NCBI GenBank assembly: GCA_021805985.1
Contig: JAJZDN010000027.1
Location: 1 to 46,167 of the forward strand
From: Planctomycetota bacterium
GTDB lineage: Bacteria > Planctomycetota > Phycisphaerae > WQYP01
Length of the DNA stretch: 46,167 nucleotides
Direction: 5' to 3'
Numbering within the stretch: the first letter of the stretch is position 1; each line of letters starts with the position of its first letter. The notes under the pieces are model-generated. The model did no database searches. It was given only the letters and a program-made list of their open reading frames with translations, and was not told the DNA's origin. Below are positions 23,106-32,448 of this stretch, one piece after another. Made by a program: the position numbers and the translations under genes.

Positions 23106-23810
23106 TTACAGCAATCCAAGTTGCAGCAGGGCCGCATCGGACATGCGGTCTTTGCTCCAGGCCGGTTCCCAGACCAGATTCACCTTGGCCGACTTTACAT
23201 CTTCCACGCTTTCCACCGCCTGTTGCACGGCGGGCGGCATGGAGCCGGCGACGGGGCAACCGGGGGCGGTGAGCGTCATGTCCACGATGACGTGCTTTTC
23301 CGCGGATATGTCAATGCGATAAATCAGGCCCAGGTCATAAATGTTTACTGGAATCTCAGGATCAAAAATGCTCCGCAATTTTTCCACAATGGACGCTTCC
23401 AGAACCTTGTTCTCCAGGGCGTCGGTAATGGTGGTGCCGGTATGGGCTTCCGCCGAGCCGGAGGATGCTGTCGGTGCCAGTGATGTCGCAGCAGCCGAGG
23501 TATTTACGGGCAGTTTTACCGCGTGCGGATTATTGAAGACAAACCCGCGACCGGAGGGCGCATCCCGAAAATCAATTTCTGTGCCATCCAAACTCGGAAA
23601 ACTCATCGGATCAGCGACAATGGTGGTCTCCATAGACTGCCCCACCACGTCATCCTCATGCCGCACTTCCGTGAGATCCAGCAGATAATTAAATCCCTGA
23701 GCGTTGCGGCCTTTGATACCGACGCGCAAAACAGCCTTGTCTCCCATCCCTTGGTCCTTGAGAATCTTTTTAATTTCCGCGGCCGCGATTTCTGTTAATG
23801 TAATGGGCAT
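23106..23810 (-). CDS. HesB-like/SufT (DUF59) fusion protein of the SUF operon
   Basis: A 234-residue fusion. Residues 2-103 follow the HesB/IscA fold (ITLTEIAAAEIKKILKDQG, FPSLDGTEIDFRDAPSGRGF, VFNNPHA), but the three cluster-binding cysteines are absent: the first position reads GRNAQGFNY and the C-terminal CGCG is replaced by VKLPVNT. After an Ala/Ser/Thr linker (105-127) comes a MIP18/DUF59 domain (128-222) with DPEIPVNIYDLGLIY and TAPGCP (Cys185), as in SufT, a factor of Fe-S protein maturation. It is the last gene after sufU, in the same orientation. I infer a carrier or adaptor that no longer holds a cluster on the HesB half. Confidence 0.88.
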   Translation of the reverse strand: MPITLTEIAAAEIKKILKDQGMGDKAVLRVGIKGRNAQGFNYLLDLTEVRHEDDVVGQSMETTIVADPMSFPSLDGTEIDFRDAPSGRGFVFNNPHAVKLPVNTSAAATSLAPTASSGSAEAHTGTTITDALENKVLEASIVEKLRSIFDPEIPVNIYDLGLIYRIDISAEKHVIVDMTLTAPGCPVAGSMPPAVQQAVESVEDVKSAKVNLVWEPAWSKDRMSDAALLQLGLL

Positions 23811-23968: not shown

Positions 23969-24421
23969 TCATTCTGTGGAAACCGGAGCATCCTGATTTT
24001 TAATGGCGGCCTGAAGCGTATGCCATGGCAACGTGGCACACTTCACCCGCACGGGAAATTCCCGCACCCCGGAAAATACCGCCAACTTATTCAATGCCTC
24101 CAGATCCGGTTCCTGATCCATGGGGCTGGTAAGCATGGTATGAAACAACTCAAACAACGGCTGTGCTTCGGCCAGGGTTTTTCCCTTCAGCGCTTCAGTC
24201 ATCATGGAAGCGGAAGCGGTGGAAATGGCGCAACCATTCCCAGTGAAGCTTATGTCTTCGATGATGCCGGCGTTTAATTTCAGGAAAAGCTTGATATTAT
24301 CGCCGCAAAGCCGATTGTGGCCGTCGGCAGTCGAAGTTGCGTCCGGCATTTCATGCTTGTTGCGCGGTTTGCGCGTATGGTCAAGAATCGTCTGCTGGTA
24401 AAGATCACGCAGGTCGGACAT
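23969..24421 (-). CDS. sufU: SufU-type Fe-S cluster scaffold / sulfur transfer protein
   Basis: A 150-residue SufU with the zinc/sulfur site residues Cys39 and Asp41 (RLCGD), Cys64 (GNGCAIS) and Cys128 (VKCATL). SufU takes the persulfide from SufS and passes it on for cluster assembly on SufBCD. The ATG overlaps the sufS stop by one base (TGATG), so the two are coupled. The extra insertion (about residues 99-121, PMDQEPDLEALNKL) that separates SufU from IscU is present. Confidence 0.95.
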   Translation of the reverse strand: MSDLRDLYQQTILDHTRKPRNKHEMPDATSTADGHNRLCGDNIKLFLKLNAGIIEDISFTGNGCAISTASASMMTEALKGKTLAEAQPLFELFHTMLTSPMDQEPDLEALNKLAVFSGVREFPVRVKCATLPWHTLQAAIKNQDAPVSTE

Positions 24422-25689
24422 CAGCTGAATACCTCTTTGACTTTTTCAACGGCTGCCAACAGGCGGTCCACATCTTCCCGATTATTATAAAACGCCAGAG
24501 ATGCCCGTGCCGTTGCGGCAATATTGTAATGATCCATCAGAGGTTGGCAGCAATGATGCCCGGTGCGAATCGCCACGCCTTCGCCATCAACGATCGTGCC
24601 GATGTCATGGGGGTGAATATTCTCCATAACAAACGAGATCACCGCGGCTTTCTCCGGTGCGGTTCCAATAATATGTAACCCGGAAATTCGCTTTAACTGT
24701 TTGGTGGCATACAGCAGCAGATCATGTTCATATTCGGCGATGGCATCCATGCCAATGCCGCCAAGGTAATCAATCGCCACGCCCAAGCCAATTGCTCCAC
24801 TAATGTGCGGCGTGCCGGCCTCAAATTTATGCGGTATGTCATTCCAAGTTGATCCGGCAAAGCTCACCGTGCTGATCATGTCTCCGCCACCCTGATACGG
24901 CGGCATTTTTTCCAGCAGGGCAGCTTTGGCCCACAACACCCCGATGCCCGTGGGCGCATAAAGTTTGTGCCCTGAAAATACAAAAAAGTCGCACCCCATT
25001 TTCTGCACATCCACGGCCAGATGCGGAACAGATTGTGCACCATCAACAAGCACCGGAATACCGCGGGCTTTGGCCATAGCGACAATGCGTTCAATGGGGT
25101 TGATCGTGCCTAAGGCATTAGACACATGCGTAACAGCCACCAGACGTGTGCGGTCGGAAAGCAGTTGCGCGTAATGATCCAGCGACAATTCACCGCGCTG
25201 GGAAATGGAGATAACCTTGATAATCGCACCGGTCCGCTGGGCCAATAATTGCCATGGCACGATGTTGGAATGGTGTTCCATTTCCGAAAGAATTATTTCA
25301 TCTCCGGAATGGATATTTTCCATGCCCCAAGTGGCAGCCACCAGATTCACCGCTTCCGTGGCACCGCGGACAAATACAATTTCCCGCGCAGATGGGGCAT
25401 TGATAAATCGTGCAACTTTTTCCCGCGCGGCTTCATACGCGGCCGTGGCATCGACACTTAATTTATAAACGCCCCGGTGAATATTGGCGTTGTAATTTGT
25501 GTAATAGCGAGTTGTGGCGGCAATAACCGCCTGCGGCTTCTGGCTGGTGGCGGCATTGTCCAGATACACTAGCGGCTTTCCGTGTGATTGCGTCTGTAAA
25601 AGCGGAAAATCAGAACGGATGGCCGCACTATCAAACGCCGGTGCTTTGGCCGCTTTGGCAACTGCGGATTTGGTGGTTGTGGTGGTCAT
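24421..25689 (-). CDS. sufS: SufS cysteine desulfurase
   Basis: A 422-residue PLP enzyme that takes sulfur from cysteine. It has the PLP lysine in SGHKLYAPTG (Lys242), the catalytic Cys380 in RTGHHCCQP, and the conserved NAATSQKP and GATEAVNLVA segments. A Thr/Ala-rich N-terminal tail of about 20 residues precedes the enzyme. It overlaps sufD by 4 nt (ATGA) and sufU by 1 nt. Confidence 0.97.
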   Translation of the reverse strand: MTTTTTKSAVAKAAKAPAFDSAAIRSDFPLLQTQSHGKPLVYLDNAATSQKPQAVIAATTRYYTNYNANIHRGVYKLSVDATAAYEAAREKVARFINAPSAREIVFVRGATEAVNLVAATWGMENIHSGDEIILSEMEHHSNIVPWQLLAQRTGAIIKVISISQRGELSLDHYAQLLSDRTRLVAVTHVSNALGTINPIERIVAMAKARGIPVLVDGAQSVPHLAVDVQKMGCDFFVFSGHKLYAPTGIGVLWAKAALLEKMPPYQGGGDMISTVSFAGSTWNDIPHKFEAGTPHISGAIGLGVAIDYLGGIGMDAIAEYEHDLLLYATKQLKRISGLHIIGTAPEKAAVISFVMENIHPHDIGTIVDGEGVAIRTGHHCCQPLMDHYNIAATARASLAFYNNREDVDRLLAAVEKVKEVFS

Positions 25690-27005
25690 GATTTCGCCTG
25701 ATCCAGATGCAGCCGATGCAATTCAGCTGCGACAAAGTCTTCCAGATATTCGCGCATGCCGGTGTGCCAAATCCGCAGGAGCACATCGCGAGCGAAGGCG
25801 TAAGTCAGCAGCGCCCCGGCATCCGCAGCTGCAACGCCTCGCGACCGCAGATAAAACAATTGCTCATCATCCAGCGGACCAGTGGTTGAGCCGTGCGTAC
25901 ATTTCACATCATCGGCATAAATTTCAAGCTGCGGCTGTGAATTCATCACCGCATCATCGGACAGCAGAATGGTTTTGCTGGTCTGTTTAGAGTCGGTTTT
26001 CTGGGCATCCGGCCGCACTAGAATCTTGCCGCGAAATACCGCGCTGGCTCGGCCGCCCAGAAGATTTTTGTATAATTCATGGCTCGGGCAGTTTTCCCGC
26101 GCATGATCTAACATGGTGTGATTATCAATATGCTGATCCCCTGCAGCCAAGGTCAAACCGTTAAGTGTGGCCTGGGCAAACGGCTCGGCAAGATGCACGG
26201 TCATGTTGTTGCGTACCAGATGTCCGCCGGTATTAACAACCAACGATTGCACATCAGCGTGTTCATGCACATGAATGGCCTCATTGGCAATATGAAAAGC
26301 GGTATCACGTTCCCGCTGCAATTTAATGAGTTCAACTTTTGCGCCCTTGCCGACAACCATTTCCGTCACGGCATTGCAAAGTGTGGGCTGGGATGAAAAG
26401 CTCGCATAGCTTTGCACCAGTGTGATATGGTTATTGGAGCCAATAATCAGCAGATTGCGCGGCTGTACAACCACCGGTTGATCATGCGATGCGGTGATCC
26501 ACAGCAGATGAACCAGGCCCACTTCACCCTGATCCGGCGGCAAATAAATGAATGCACCATCTTCAAACCCTGCGAGATTCATGGCTGAAAAGCCATTGGA
26601 TTGCCCCGGCATTTCGCGGCCCAAAAACCGCTGCACCCGATCGCCAAGTTTTTCCATACCCTTTTGAATGGTCAGAACTTCAACTTTTCCGCCGAGGCTG
26701 GACAATTCGGAGGAGAATTTTCCGTCCACGAATACCATCTGCTGGGCACCGAGTTTTTTCAAACACAGCCCACCGAGTTGCTCCGGAGTCAAGGGGGTGC
26801 CGGTGCCGGGTGCGCTGAAATTAATTTTGGAAATTTGTGCGGTGTTGGTCAGCCGCCAGTCTTCATGAGTCACCGGCGGCAGGCCAATACGCTCAAACAC
26901 TTCAGCGGCTTCCGCCCGCCGTTGCTGCAGCCAAGGCAACCCATAACTTGGCCCCATGGCAGAAAATATTCCGGTGTTATCCGGGCTGATGGTTGTTGAG
27001 GTCAT
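25686..27005 (-). CDS. sufD: SufD, Fe-S assembly scaffold subunit
   Basis: A 439-residue SufD with the C-terminal beta-helix pattern (HAREN, GGRASAVFRGKILVRPDAQ, KTDSKQTSKTILLSDDAVMN) and KCTHGSTTGPLDDEQLFYLRSRG, which carries the conserved His involved in the SufB-SufD interface. It pairs with SufB and the SufC ATPase. It follows sufC and overlaps sufS. Confidence 0.95.
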   Translation of the reverse strand: MTSTTISPDNTGIFSAMGPSYGLPWLQQRRAEAAEVFERIGLPPVTHEDWRLTNTAQISKINFSAPGTGTPLTPEQLGGLCLKKLGAQQMVFVDGKFSSELSSLGGKVEVLTIQKGMEKLGDRVQRFLGREMPGQSNGFSAMNLAGFEDGAFIYLPPDQGEVGLVHLLWITASHDQPVVVQPRNLLIIGSNNHITLVQSYASFSSQPTLCNAVTEMVVGKGAKVELIKLQRERDTAFHIANEAIHVHEHADVQSLVVNTGGHLVRNNMTVHLAEPFAQATLNGLTLAAGDQHIDNHTMLDHARENCPSHELYKNLLGGRASAVFRGKILVRPDAQKTDSKQTSKTILLSDDAVMNSQPQLEIYADDVKCTHGSTTGPLDDEQLFYLRSRGVAAADAGALLTYAFARDVLLRIWHTGMREYLEDFVAAELHRLHLDQAKS

Positions 27006-27036: not shown

Positions 27037-27792
27037 TCAAGCGGCGGCGGTTTCCAGCCAGGCGTAACCGCGCTTTTCCAATTCCAGCGCCAATTCCTTG
27101 CCGCCGGATTTAACAATTCTGCCATCGCACAAAACGTGCACAAAATCCGGCACAATATAGTCCAGCAACCGCTGATAATGCGTGACCACCAGAATAGCCC
27201 GCTCCGGGCTACGCAGGGCATTAACCCCGTTGGCTACAATTTTCAAGGCGTCAATGTCCAGGCCGGAATCGGTTTCATCCAAAATGGCGAATTTTGGATT
27301 CAATACCGCCATCTGAAAAATCTCGTTGCGCTTCTTCTCGCCGCCGGACACTCATTCATTCACGGATCGGTTCAAAAATGTCTTATCCATTTCCAGCAAG
27401 GCCATTTTCTCTTTGACCATTTTCAAGAAATCCATGGCATCCAGTTCTTCCTGACCATGATGCTTGCGAATGGCGTTCACCGCCGCCATGAGAAAATAGC
27501 TGGTGGTCACGCCCGGAATTTCCACGGGGTACTGAAATGCCATAAACAAGCCTTCACAAGCCCGTTCTTCCGGGGATAAGTCCAGCAAATCTTTGCCGTC
27601 AAACAGCACGCTGCCGCCGGTAACCGTATACGTCTCCCGGCCCGCCAGCACGGATGAAAGCGTGCTTTTTCCTGAACCGTTGGGTCCCATGATGGCGTGA
27701 ACTTCACCGGGGTTAATCGTCAGATCAATGCCCTTCAGGATCGGCTTGCCGCCCACGGCAGCCTGCAAATTATTTATTTCAACGAATGCCAT
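27037..27792 (-). pseudogene. sufC: SufC ATPase gene split by an in-frame TGA
   Basis: The frame encodes a full-length SufC: Walker [10 protein letters not shown] (36-44), the Q-loop [10 protein letters not shown], then after NE a TGA (27354-27352), and then directly GTG and SGGEKKRNE, Walker [13 protein letters not shown] and the H-loop VVTHYQRLL. In other SufC proteins this site reads NEGFSGGE, so the stop replaces the Gly and Val replaces Phe. Both halves are otherwise intact, and the neighbours are intact. It could be a real nonsense mutation, a sequencing or assembly error, a GTG restart giving two polypeptides, or readthrough. SufC is needed for SufBCD function, so a plain knock-out would be surprising. 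Confidence 0.85.
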
Positions 27793-27871: not shown

Positions 27872-29314
27872 CTATCCGACACTGCCTTCAAGGCTGACGC
27901 CCAGCAATTTTTGGGCTTCGACGGCAAATTCCATCGGCAGTTCCCGGAACACTTCCTTGCAGAAGCCGTTGATAATCATATTGACCGCATCTTCGAGTGA
28001 AATACCGCGCTGTTTGCAGTAAAAAAGCTGATCCTCACCGATTTTGGAGGTGGAGGCTTCATGTTCAGCCTTGGAGCTGGTGTTGCGAACTTCGATATAC
28101 GGGAAGGTATGGGCACCGCATTTATCCCCCAGCAGCAGCGAATCGCATTGCGTGTAATTGCGGGCGTTGGTGGCATTTTTCAAAACCTTAATCAGACCGC
28201 GGTAGGTGTTCTGTCCCTTCCCCGCCGAGATGCCTTTGGACACCACGGTGCTGCGTGTATTTTTGCCAATATGGATCATTTTCGTGCCGGTATCCGCCTG
28301 CTGCATGTGATTGGTCAGCGCGACGGAATAAAACTCGCCGATGGAATTATCGCCCTGCAGAATCACGCTGGGGTATTTCCAGGTGATTGCAGAACCGGTT
28401 TCCACCTGCGTCCAGGAAATGCGGGCGCTTTCCATACATTTGCCGCGTTTGGTGACAAAATTATAGATGCCGCCTTTACCCTGTTTGTCGCCCGGGTACC
28501 AGTTCTGCACCGTGGAATATTTAATTTGTGCACCCTTGAGTGCTACAAGTTCCACCACGGCCGCGTGCAACTGATTTTCATCCCGCATCGGGGCGGTGCA
28601 ACCTTCGAGATAACTGACATACGCCCCTTCATCGGCGATAATTAATGTGCGCTCAAACTGCCCGGTATTTTTGGCATTGATCCGGAAATAGGTGGACAAT
28701 TCCATCGGGCAGCGCACGCCTTTGGGTACATAACAAAATGACCCGTCACTGAATACCGCGGAATTCAGCGTGGCGTAAAAGTTGTCTGAATACGGCACCA
28801 CCGAACCTAGATATTTGCTGATCAGTTCCGGATGTTCCTGCACCGCTTCGGAAAATGAGCAGAAAATCACGCCCATTTCTGCCAGCTTGGCTTTAAAGGT
28901 TGTCGCGACAGATACCGAATCAAAAACGGCGTCCACCGCTACACCGGCAAATATTTTCTGCTCTTCCAGCGGCACGCCCAGCTTTTCGTAGGTGCGCAGC
29001 AGTTCCGGATCAACTTCATCCAGGCTTTTAAGCTGTTTCTTGGCCTTCGGGGCAGAGTAATAAATCACATCCTGAAAATCAATTTCCGGATATTTTACGT
29101 TCGGCCACTTCGGTTCGGTCATGGTCAGCCAATGGCGGTAGGCCTTAAGCCGCCACTGCGTCATAAAGTCCGGCTCATTTTTTCGCTTGGAAATAGCACG
29201 GACAATATCTTCATTCAGGCCTTTGGGTAGGGCGTCGGCCTCAATGTCGGTGACGAAACCCCATTTATATTCCTGATTGGCCAGCGTTTCTATTGTGCCT
29301 TCATCTGTCGGCAT
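27872..29314 (-). CDS. sufB: SufB, Fe-S cluster scaffold subunit
   Basis: A 480-residue SufB with the typical N-terminus ([21 protein letters not shown]), the core [45 protein letters not shown], and the C-terminal [20 protein letters not shown] and [17 protein letters not shown]. SufB is the site of nascent cluster assembly with SufC and SufD. It is the first gene of the operon, with AGGGG 8 nt before its ATG and a clear promoter upstream. Confidence 0.97.
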
Positions 29315-29384: not shown

Positions 29385-29432
29385 ATGTTAGGGATTCCGC
29401 AGCGTCATGTCAATTGAGACTTAGTCTCAATT
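29385..29432 (-). promoter_or_regulatory. suf operon promoter with overlapping palindromic operator
   Basis: Minus-strand TTGACA (29413-29408), 17-nt spacer, TAACAT (29390-29385). A perfect palindrome of two 10-nt arms (AATTGAGACT and AGTCTCAATT) around a single T at 29412-29432 runs into the -35 box. The 7-1-7 core TGAGACT-T-AGTCTCA has Fur-like geometry, and Rrf2/IscR-type regulators also use such sites; which protein binds is unknown. The leader would be about 64 nt. It lies 20 nt after the GH35 gene stop and has no following U-tract, so it is unlikely to be a terminator. Confidence 0.7.
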
Positions 29433-29451: not shown

Positions 29452-32448
29452 TCATTTAAGGGTGAGTGTCGCATACCAGCGGCTCGCGACCTTTTCCACT
29501 ACCAGTCGCGTGGCCGCTGGCGAATGGCCTTCCTGATCAGAAACAATCAATTGGTTGGTCCCTCGCTTGAGATAGCAGCTTGGTATATACAACCCCATGG
29601 TCATGACGGTATCCGGGTAATGCCCCAGATTATGGCCATTCAGCCACATATAGCCGCCCGTTAGATCACCCCAGGCCATGCGCATAATAACATGCAGCTT
29701 ATCCTGCGGATTTACCTTGGGATTCCAGGTAAAAGTGGTGCGATAAAAGCATGGCACATTCGGAGCTTGGGTAAAGTTCTCCCATCCGGACTTGTTAAAT
29801 GGCGAACCCATGCCCCCACGCATCCGCCAAGGCCCAATGACTCCCCCGCCGCGTACCGCCGGTGCCAGGCGGGACAGGCTAAGGGATACCTGCCCCAGAC
29901 TGTGCTTGGCATTGGCGGGTATCAAAATGCTTAGAATATTAGACTGCTTGCCATACCAGAATGTCAGCATCGCCCGTGCTGGATCCGTCCCGACCAGGTG
30001 CGGATCTACCCGTCCGGCATCAAAACAGATAAATGCCTGGGCCATTGGATGTTGCCAGGAAAGCACAAGATGGTCAGCATTAAGCTGCGAAATTTTGGCA
30101 CGAAGCCATATAAAGCCAGGCTTCTTAAATTTCGGAATCACGTTGTGGTTTAGCTTGCTGAACTTCCCACCCACCTGATCAGATAATACGTGTACCATCG
30201 CTGCCGATTTGGACAATGGGAGAAAGCAGTATTTCCAGTTTTTCACCAGCAGCTTTTTGGTTACCACCTTCATAAGTATCGCCTTGCCGGAAATTCCTAT
30301 GGCCCCCACTTTGTTGTATGGACCAATATACGTCCATAGCTTGGGCCGCCCAGTGGAGCTGGCGAGAATCGCCACGTCGTTGACTCCCGCCTTGAGCCGC
30401 ACGTTTACCGCCCGGTTGCTGCCCGTCTGGGCCAACTTCCCGTTGACAAATACATCAGCCGTGTCGGCAAACCGGGAAAATAAAATGCGATAGGCCCCAG
30501 TCTTTTTTACCGTTATTTTACTGCGATACCACTGATGCAGCCCGGGATAATCTCCAACACCCATCTGCACCGGATTGGGTGCGGAAATCCAGGATTTATC
30601 ATCATAGTTCGGTTTGACAGGCCCATCCGCCAATCGCACCTGCCATGGCGCAAATGCGGGAACGGCCAAATTAGCCGCTTTCCGCGGGCCAGCCACTGCA
30701 CTTACAGAAACCGGCTTCGGTGAATTACCAAAATAAATGTTCGCCTGCCGCACGTTATCCGTCACCGGCATTTGCGTTTGCAGGACAATGCCATGCTTGT
30801 CGTTTTCCGTCCGGCCCACGTAATCCGGCCCGCAGACCAACGCCGGACGGCCACCAATATTCAAAAACCAGGTGTGATACATCGCCGCGCGGCTTTCCAC
30901 AAACACGCGCAGGGTGTGATGGGTGGTTTGTATGCTGTAAATATCCGGGCCTGCTGGCGGTACCTTCACCTGAAGTTGCAAGCCACCGCCCGCAGATTCC
31001 TTCTTGAATGATTTTGCCTGCGACAGAATTTTCCCATGCACGCCCAATCGCAAAAGTATCTGCGCGCCCGGCGGCCCATACATCACCAGCGTCGTGCTGG
31101 CCCCCTGCTTAAAAATGCCGAAGATTCGCCCGCAACTATTTTGTAATTTGAAGGTTTTGTTAATTGCAAATTTCTTTACCACTGCAAACAGATGGAACCC
31201 GGCAATCGTCTGTGAGCAGCCGTCGGGAATTTTCACGGTAGCCGGATTAAATGACAGATTCTGATAAAAAAACATGTCCCCGTTGGGACTTTGCCGTTCA
31301 AACACACGCACACCGGGCGGCGCTTTGAATTTCAGATGGCGCACGTTACTGCTGGTTTCCAGGATGCGTTGAAAGCTGCGTCCAAAATAATTGGCGGTTT
31401 TGTAGATGTAATACAGGGGTCGCAAATCTCCCGCCTGACCAATGGGTGCCGCAAAGTCATAACTCGGCCCGACCGTATCATCTACATAATAGGATGGCGT
31501 GGTGCCGCCGACGGCCAGATAGGCATCGTAGCCGTTGCCGCCATACGCAATAACATGCCACATTGATTGCCGACTGATCTGGCTTAGCGCCCGCGGATGG
31601 GTCCGGTATAAGGTGAACCACCCCGTCCACATTTCCGTTGTAAACCAGGGGCCGGGACGATGTTTTGTACTCCATGGGCCGGGGCCTGCAGGACTATTTC
31701 CATGGTGCATACCGCTGAAATACATGGGTACATCGATACCCATGGCCCGTGCTTTATTGTAGAGAAATTTGTAATATGCATTGGGCAGCACATTGCCCCA
31801 TCCCTGCGAATCTTCATTTTCCAATTGTGCCATAATCACCGGGCCGCCGCGGTTGATTTGGTTGGCCGCAATGATGGGTAAAAGTTTGTTGTAGTAACTG
31901 TTGACCGCACTGATAAAGGGCTTGTCATCCTCCCGCACCGCCATACCGGGAATAAACCGCAGCCACACCGGCCAGCCGCCCTGACTCCATTCCCCGTTGC
32001 AGTATGGACCGATACGGAGAATGGCATAGAAACCCATTTTGTGAACCAGTTTTAAAAATGCCGCCAGATTATGACGCCCCTTAAAGTCGAATTGCCCCTT
32101 GCGCGGTTCCTGGTAGCTCCAGAAAATATAAGTCTGAACGCAATTAAAGCCGGCCCGCTTCATTTTCAGCAGCCGACTGGCCCACAACGCCCGCGGCACC
32201 CGCTGATAATGCAAACTTCCCGAGGCAATAAATACCCGTTTGCCCCGGATAATAAAGCCTTTCGCGTCAAAATTAATATACGGCTTGGCCGCCGCCGTCG
32301 GGCGAAACATCGCAACATCTTCCGGGCCAAAGGCCGCCACCGGCACCGCACGCCAGGCAAGCATCATGACGACCCCAATGGCGGCCAATCGCAAGACAGA
32401 AATATAAGATTTACCATGATTAAGTAATTTAGATCGCACTGGCAGCAA
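29452..32448 (-). CDS. Secreted glycoside hydrolase family 35 beta-galactosidase-like
   Basis: A 998-residue protein with an N-terminal signal (hydrophobic stretch about 18-38, VPVAAF before the mature part). The catalytic TIM barrel starts at SGSLHYQRVPRALWASRLLK and has the acid/base Glu212 in QLENEDS and the nucleophile Glu272 in TEMWTGWF; family members usually read ENEYG, so the Asp-Ser at 213-214 is unusual. Several beta-sandwich domains follow, including a galactose-binding-like one (SWISAPNPVQMGVGDYPGL). It probably removes galactosyl residues from polysaccharides in the envelope or outside. It is a lone gene between suf and the peptidases. Confidence 0.9.
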   Translation of the reverse strand: MLPVRSKLLNHGKSYISVLRLAAIGVVMMLAWRAVPVAAFGPEDVAMFRPTAAAKPYINFDAKGFIIRGKRVFIASGSLHYQRVPRALWASRLLKMKRAGFNCVQTYIFWSYQEPRKGQFDFKGRHNLAAFLKLVHKMGFYAILRIGPYCNGEWSQGGWPVWLRFIPGMAVREDDKPFISAVNSYYNKLLPIIAANQINRGGPVIMAQLENEDSQGWGNVLPNAYYKFLYNKARAMGIDVPMYFSGMHHGNSPAGPGPWSTKHRPGPWFTTEMWTGWFTLYRTHPRALSQISRQSMWHVIAYGGNGYDAYLAVGGTTPSYYVDDTVGPSYDFAAPIGQAGDLRPLYYIYKTANYFGRSFQRILETSSNVRHLKFKAPPGVRVFERQSPNGDMFFYQNLSFNPATVKIPDGCSQTIAGFHLFAVVKKFAINKTFKLQNSCGRIFGIFKQGASTTLVMYGPPGAQILLRLGVHGKILSQAKSFKKESAGGGLQLQVKVPPAGPDIYSIQTTHHTLRVFVESRAAMYHTWFLNIGGRPALVCGPDYVGRTENDKHGIVLQTQMPVTDNVRQANIYFGNSPKPVSVSAVAGPRKAANLAVPAFAPWQVRLADGPVKPNYDDKSWISAPNPVQMGVGDYPGLHQWYRSKITVKKTGAYRILFSRFADTADVFVNGKLAQTGSNRAVNVRLKAGVNDVAILASSTGRPKLWTYIGPYNKVGAIGISGKAILMKVVTKKLLVKNWKYCFLPLSKSAAMVHVLSDQVGGKFSKLNHNVIPKFKKPGFIWLRAKISQLNADHLVLSWQHPMAQAFICFDAGRVDPHLVGTDPARAMLTFWYGKQSNILSILIPANAKHSLGQVSLSLSRLAPAVRGGGVIGPWRMRGGMGSPFNKSGWENFTQAPNVPCFYRTTFTWNPKVNPQDKLHVIMRMAWGDLTGGYMWLNGHNLGHYPDTVMTMGLYIPSCYLKRGTNQLIVSDQEGHSPAATRLVVEKVASRWYATLTLK

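Follow-up and report, generated by a model that had tools for sequence, protein, structure and literature searches.

What regulator controls the suf operon of this planctomycete is the question raised by a palindrome at the operon's promoter. The operon lies on the minus strand of the window, by which we mean the whole stretch of 46,167 nucleotides that was analyzed. It begins with sufB (27872 to 29314; NCBIfam SufB, E 7.9e-278), followed by sufC (27037 to 27792; named from its translation), sufD (25686 to 27005; Pfam SUFBD_core, E 2.2e-79), the cysteine desulfurase gene sufS (24421 to 25689) and sufU (23969 to 24421), the last two matching the NCBIfam models sufS and SufU above cut-off. The final gene (23106 to 23810) encodes, by family matches, a fusion of an A-type carrier domain (residues 1 to 98) and a SufT/DUF59 domain (residues 138 to 233). 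In the source assembly, sufC contains an in-frame TGA (27352 to 27354, minus strand) within its ABC signature, which reads NE-stop-VSGGEKK; nine of the ten relatives compared have an open frame with NEGFSGGEKK, and the tenth, the same-genus genome G026 (L009), has a frame change close to the same place. The stop reflects either an assembly error or a decaying gene. Immediately upstream of the suf promoter and on the same strand is a large gene (29452 to 32448) that looks glycosidase-like by eye. The list of open reading frames for 22 to 40 kb agrees with the earlier note that no regulator gene stands beside the operon. Elsewhere in the source genome, the sole Fur match is encoded on contig C191, at L005:1459-1896, the sole Rrf2 protein above cut-off on C186 and the sole DtxR protein on C16.

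The palindrome, previously described from the letters of the sequence, was confirmed as a perfect 21-nt inverted repeat at 29412 to 29432, with two 10-nt arms around a single base (AATTGAGACT-T-AGTCTCAATT). The suf promoter upstream of sufB reads TTGACA-N17-TAACAT on the minus strand, with the −35 box at 29408 to 29413 and the −10 box at 29385 to 29390. The earlier placement of the palindrome directly on this promoter was slightly generous: it does touch the −35 box, but the overlap is only 2 bases and the rest of the palindrome lies upstream of the box. Inside it, the 17-bp core TTGAGACTTAGTCTCAA (29414 to 29430), which we propose as a 7-1-7 Fur operator, abuts the −35 box. No other perfect palindrome with 10-nt arms and a spacer of 0 to 4 occurs in the window, and 12 of 30 dinucleotide shuffles of the window contain at least one. 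Similarly, the 15-mer core has one match in the window at up to 3 mismatches, and 38 of 100 shuffles have a match at that threshold. Because shuffled windows often hold such a palindrome, its presence in the window alone is no proof of function.

We therefore relied on conservation in relatives, which is what makes a functional palindrome convincing. Of the 28 genomes of the source family, 26 gave a SufB match; the sole match in G011 was weak (25% identity) and of the SufD kind. After loci truncated ahead of the start of the gene (L028, L031, and L032) and SufD loci (L033, L036, and L037) had been dropped, 24 readable upstream regions from 23 genomes remained, G016 contributing two copies. All 24 carried the site, with 0 to 3 mismatches to TTGAGACTNAGTCTCAA, beginning 55 to 228 bases upstream of the start codon. 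In 22 of the 24 regions, G027 and G001 being the exceptions, the site is fused to the TTGAC of the −35 box (TCTCAATTGAC), and a −10-like hexamer follows 16 to 17 bp further on. The flanking sequence varies among these regions; the site and its promoter phase are constant. Outside the family, no suf-type site was detected upstream of sufB in other lineages (79 loci, out of 80, that had enough upstream DNA) except at L038 and L073, both of which are records of source-family genomes, and the best matches in the other lineages had at least 4 mismatches, near the level of shuffled sequence. The shuffles would allow the palindrome to be a product of chance, or the terminator stem of the upstream gene, but neither reading accounts for a promoter phase kept in 22 of 24 regions or for the sites before unrelated iron genes described below. 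Conservation refutes both, and we give them practically no credence.

We then considered where else the site occurs. The 28 genomes of the source family were scanned with the 17-mer pattern TTGAGAYTNARTCTCAA at up to 2 mismatches, with the reversed pattern as a control. This identified 106 sites versus 21 for the control, with at least one site in every genome. In the source genome, the 17-mer gave 7 sites and no control matches, while a looser 15-mer gave 7 and 5, respectively, and thus the outer T and A matter. Four of the seven sites precede suf, an FTR1 permease gene (two sites, 25 bp apart) and an NRAMP transporter gene; the other three fall within open reading frames. The genome scan proposed in the earlier note thus did return matches before iron genes besides suf. 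Among 48 family site loci, the adjoining genes included FTR1-type permeases (17), NRAMP (7), SufB (2), FeoB (2), and FeoA (1); two of these loci, L139 and L184, represent the same site, and most sufB sites were collected separately. These target counts, like those for the class, describe a sample of sites among the matches listed.

In a class sample of 248 genomes, 192 sites were found at up to 1 mismatch, compared with 5 for the control. Seventy class loci outside the source family were examined for target genes, and they included FeoA (L278 and L412), FeoB (L279), SufB (L416), haem oxygenase (L404), a CtaA-type protein (L396, and L401 by resemblance only), flavodoxin (L277), periplasmic binding proteins (L287, and L288 by resemblance only), an extracellular solute-binding protein (L294), a Fur gene (L290) and a DUF6662-like protein (L424, under the family's cut-off). 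Many sites in these 70 partly classified loci precede unclassified or secreted-protein genes or fall in open reading frames. A single one of the 70 precedes sufB, and SufB is therefore a target mainly in the source family. A palindrome present in all 24 sufB regions and also ahead of other iron genes in the genome supports the proposal that it is a regulatory element of iron and Fe-S promoters.

The sites track one Fur subfamily. The source Fur matches PF01475 (E 1.6e-24), and its best NCBIfam models are all Fur models, each match falling under the curated cut-off. A Fur match was present in 24 of the 28 source-family genomes, including all 17 good ones. Across the class, sites occurred in 85 of 114 genomes having the Fur subfamily (E < 1e-30) versus 14 of 134 genomes without it; in other words, 85 of the 99 site-bearing genomes have a strong Fur match, and four of the remaining 14 are incomplete members of the source family. 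When 13 weaker Fur matches were counted, the figures became 88 of 127 versus 11 of 121. The association was clearest in family f14, where sites were found in 10 of 11 genomes with Fur and in none of the 11 without. A family-stratified test over the six families holding both states gave a p value of 1.5e-4, which is corrected for family and not for the full phylogeny. Family f1 ran in the opposite direction, with four genomes lacking Fur, all incomplete and all site-bearing, and f6 was near neutral.

Autoregulation, which might be expected as proof, was mostly not found. The Fur gene of G110 has a site centered 44 bp upstream of its own start, and no site was present in 60 Fur upstream regions outside the source family (at up to 3 mismatches) or in 27 Fur-family loci scanned, among them L188, in which no Fur open reading frame was recognized although the motif scan covered the locus. 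Autoregulation through such a site is thus rare.

An Rrf2-type regulator, that is, an Fe-S sensor like IscR or RirA, had been named as the other candidate for binding the palindrome. The IRO box of RirA is TGA-N9-TCA, and the outer TGA and TCA of our site, with 9 bases between them, fit that outline; RirA and IscR likewise act on iron and Fe-S genes, and the source genome encodes one Rrf2 protein above cut-off, of a cysteine-poor type found in 41 of the 99 site-bearing genomes. However, this protein has no cysteine triad, its type is missing from the other 58 site-bearing genomes, and the 41 that carry it all belong to f1 and f6. It was not found (E ~1e-21 or better) in site-bearing genomes of f3, f4, f14, f18, f21, and f23. 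Nor was an Rrf2 type with two cysteines found in G000, G020, and G012 to G015, which keep sites. The 27 Rrf2 loci contained no suf-type site and no three-cysteine cluster motif, an apparent match in L269 lying in the wrong reading frame. With neither a cysteine triad nor any tracking of the sites, an Rrf2 regulator was rejected as a very unlikely owner of the palindrome. In the two-cysteine type (L242 to L258), present in many family genomes, a distance of 12 residues separates the cysteines, which resemble cysteines 1 and 3 of IscR, the middle one being absent.

A metal repressor of the DtxR/MntR type was also weighed. The source genome encodes one DtxR protein above cut-off, and NRAMP, one of the genes behind the site, is a typical MntR target. 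Against this, no DtxR match (E ≤ 1e-3) was detected in G008 and G009, which are 89 and 91% complete and keep 5 and 3 sites, respectively. In addition, none of 30 DtxR-type loci scanned had a suf-type site; DtxR loci instead carry a different palindrome, TTTGANTANTCAAA, and TTTGAGTACTCAAA was present at up to 2 mismatches in 10 of 18 loci scanned. With no match in two site-bearing genomes and another palindrome beside the gene itself, DtxR was rejected, and we consider its binding to the suf site highly improbable. The TTTGANTANTCAAA palindrome lies near the start of the DtxR-type gene (L118:1784-1797, and relatives among L213 to L229) and is probably DtxR's own operator.

This leaves Fur. The site, its fixed promoter phase across genera, its target set and its occurrence alongside one Fur subfamily are observed directly, and with them it is highly likely that the palindrome is the 7-1-7 operator of a Fur-family metalloregulator, encoded at a distance, that represses suf together with metal uptake. 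The excess of sites over controls in the source genome, family and class, their tracking of Fur, the site at the G110 Fur gene and the DNA-reading residues kept in all 30 Fur sequences described below all argue for this reading. The rarity of autoregulation, the 29 of 114 Fur-bearing genomes without a site at up to 1 mismatch, the near absence of sufB among targets outside the family, and the contrary behavior of f1 under a test corrected for family alone count against it. The earlier note had looked to an IscR or Fur homologue in the genome and to a regulator acting from elsewhere; such a Fur is present, on the separate contig C191. By analogy with established Fur biology, binding would be direct, its sign repression and its signal a metal. 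When iron (or manganese) suffices, a dimer of the Fur encoded on C191 would bind TTGAGACT-N-AGTCTCAA, cover the −35 box and block RNA polymerase, keeping the suf operon off. When the metal is short, Fur would leave the site, and suf would be expressed together with the FTR1, NRAMP, and FeoAB uptake genes that share it.

The palindrome was also compared with known operators. The classical Fur box of Escherichia coli and Bacillus subtilis is a 7-1-7 repeat, TGATAAT-N-ATTATCA. Five of the seven bases per half agree with its heptamer; positions 4 and 6, T and A there, are G and C/T in the planctomycete site. The view that the palindrome is Fur-like in form but not in sequence is right in part; its second half is not supported, since five of the seven bases match TGATAAT and the sites track Fur. 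The planctomycete sites are single units of 15 to 17 bp, sometimes paired at a distance of 25 to 46 bp, whereas classical boxes form overlapping 19-bp arrays. Shared with the classical boxes (PMC12683245, PMC11353095) are the 7-1-7 inverted repeat, the TGA and TCA ends, and a position in promoters of repressed genes; according to the same sources, the E. coli suf operon also carries a Fur box. There, Fur binds the sufABCDSE promoter and suf is expressed under metal shortage (PMC12683245), which provides a published parallel for our operon. A second parallel, from the alphaproteobacterial Fur operators, is the feoAB1 operator of MgFur, a 7-1-7 repeat that lacks GATAAT hexamers and is bound by one dimer (PMC4506495, PMC11353095). 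Its half-sites are TCGCAACT and TTGCAAAT, compared with TTGAGACT here, and the g8 variant TTGCGACT is intermediate.

MgFur (4raz) is also, by sequence, among the solved Fur structures nearest to the source Fur, together with chains 5fd6/5fd5, which we take to be Rhizobium leguminosarum Fur. In MgFur, DNA is read by K15, Y56, and R57, and the regulatory metal site consists of H33, E81, H88, H90, and E101 (PMC4506495). We aligned 30 class Fur sequences (L301 to L330), 23 from the source family and 7 from four other families. The equivalents of K15, Y56, and R57 were invariant in all 30. The histidine at the H33 position was missing from all 30; the alignment may slip by 1 to 2 residues there, and no histidine lay within three residues in the sequences inspected. 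E101 was kept in 9 of 30, and an equivalent of H125 in all 30. The source Fur retains the equivalents of H88 and H90, and in G110 and G200, the f4 Fur members read, all five regulatory-site residues are changed. These proteins do not keep the usual regulatory site (H33, E81, H88, H90, and E101) intact, and the usual iron-binding site looks partly lost in this subfamily. With the reading residues invariant and H33 lost, recognition of DNA is thus preserved, which is not evident for metal sensing of the usual kind. The eroded metal site is itself a point against a Fur operator; an H33A/H90A double mutant of MgFur does not bind DNA (PMC4506495).

The loss of H33 throughout puts the manner of iron sensing in question. 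Tentatively, and at less than even odds, we suggest that in this planctomycete Fur subfamily the DNA-reading head and a regulon spanning the class have survived the loss of the canonical site for sensing iron, so that iron must be measured otherwise; candidates are a metal site rearranged around the conserved H125 equivalent, haem, an Fe-S cluster, or a partner protein. It is possible, if rather doubtful, that the Fur protein that reads the site responds to a signal other than Fe2+ at the usual place, such as manganese, haem, an Fe-S cluster, or a partner. This possibility bears on the signal alone, leaves the operator untouched, and agrees with the Fur reading. The altered regulatory site in all 30 sequences, the identity of the nearest structures, the presence of NRAMP among the targets and a [2Fe-2S] form of Fur reported for E. 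coli (PMC12683245) speak for it. Conversely, the targets that could be identified are mostly genes for iron or haem (FTR1, FeoA/B, haem oxygenase, and CtaA), along with flavodoxin, and the source Fur retains its H88 and H90 equivalents.

Most likely, then, the palindrome is a lineage-specific Fur box of Phycisphaerae-type planctomycetes that serves iron-uptake genes class-wide and suf in the source family, where suf is a probable Fur target. A search of titles and abstracts, a coverage to which subscription papers mostly do not belong, found no description of a planctomycete Fur box. Fur boxes that diverge from the classical sequence are already known. What is added here is an operator with its regulon, computed and testable, for the control of iron in a planctomycete class, and a set of Fur proteins whose DNA reading has come apart from the usual site of iron sensing, which is directly testable. 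Finally, several sites lie close before genes for secreted proteins, a number of them with PEP-CTERM-like ends, and before a recurrent DUF6662-like protein (L272, L283, L284, L291 to L293, L398, L402, L413, L421, L423 to L425, L427, and L429). These are candidate iron-regulated surface proteins.
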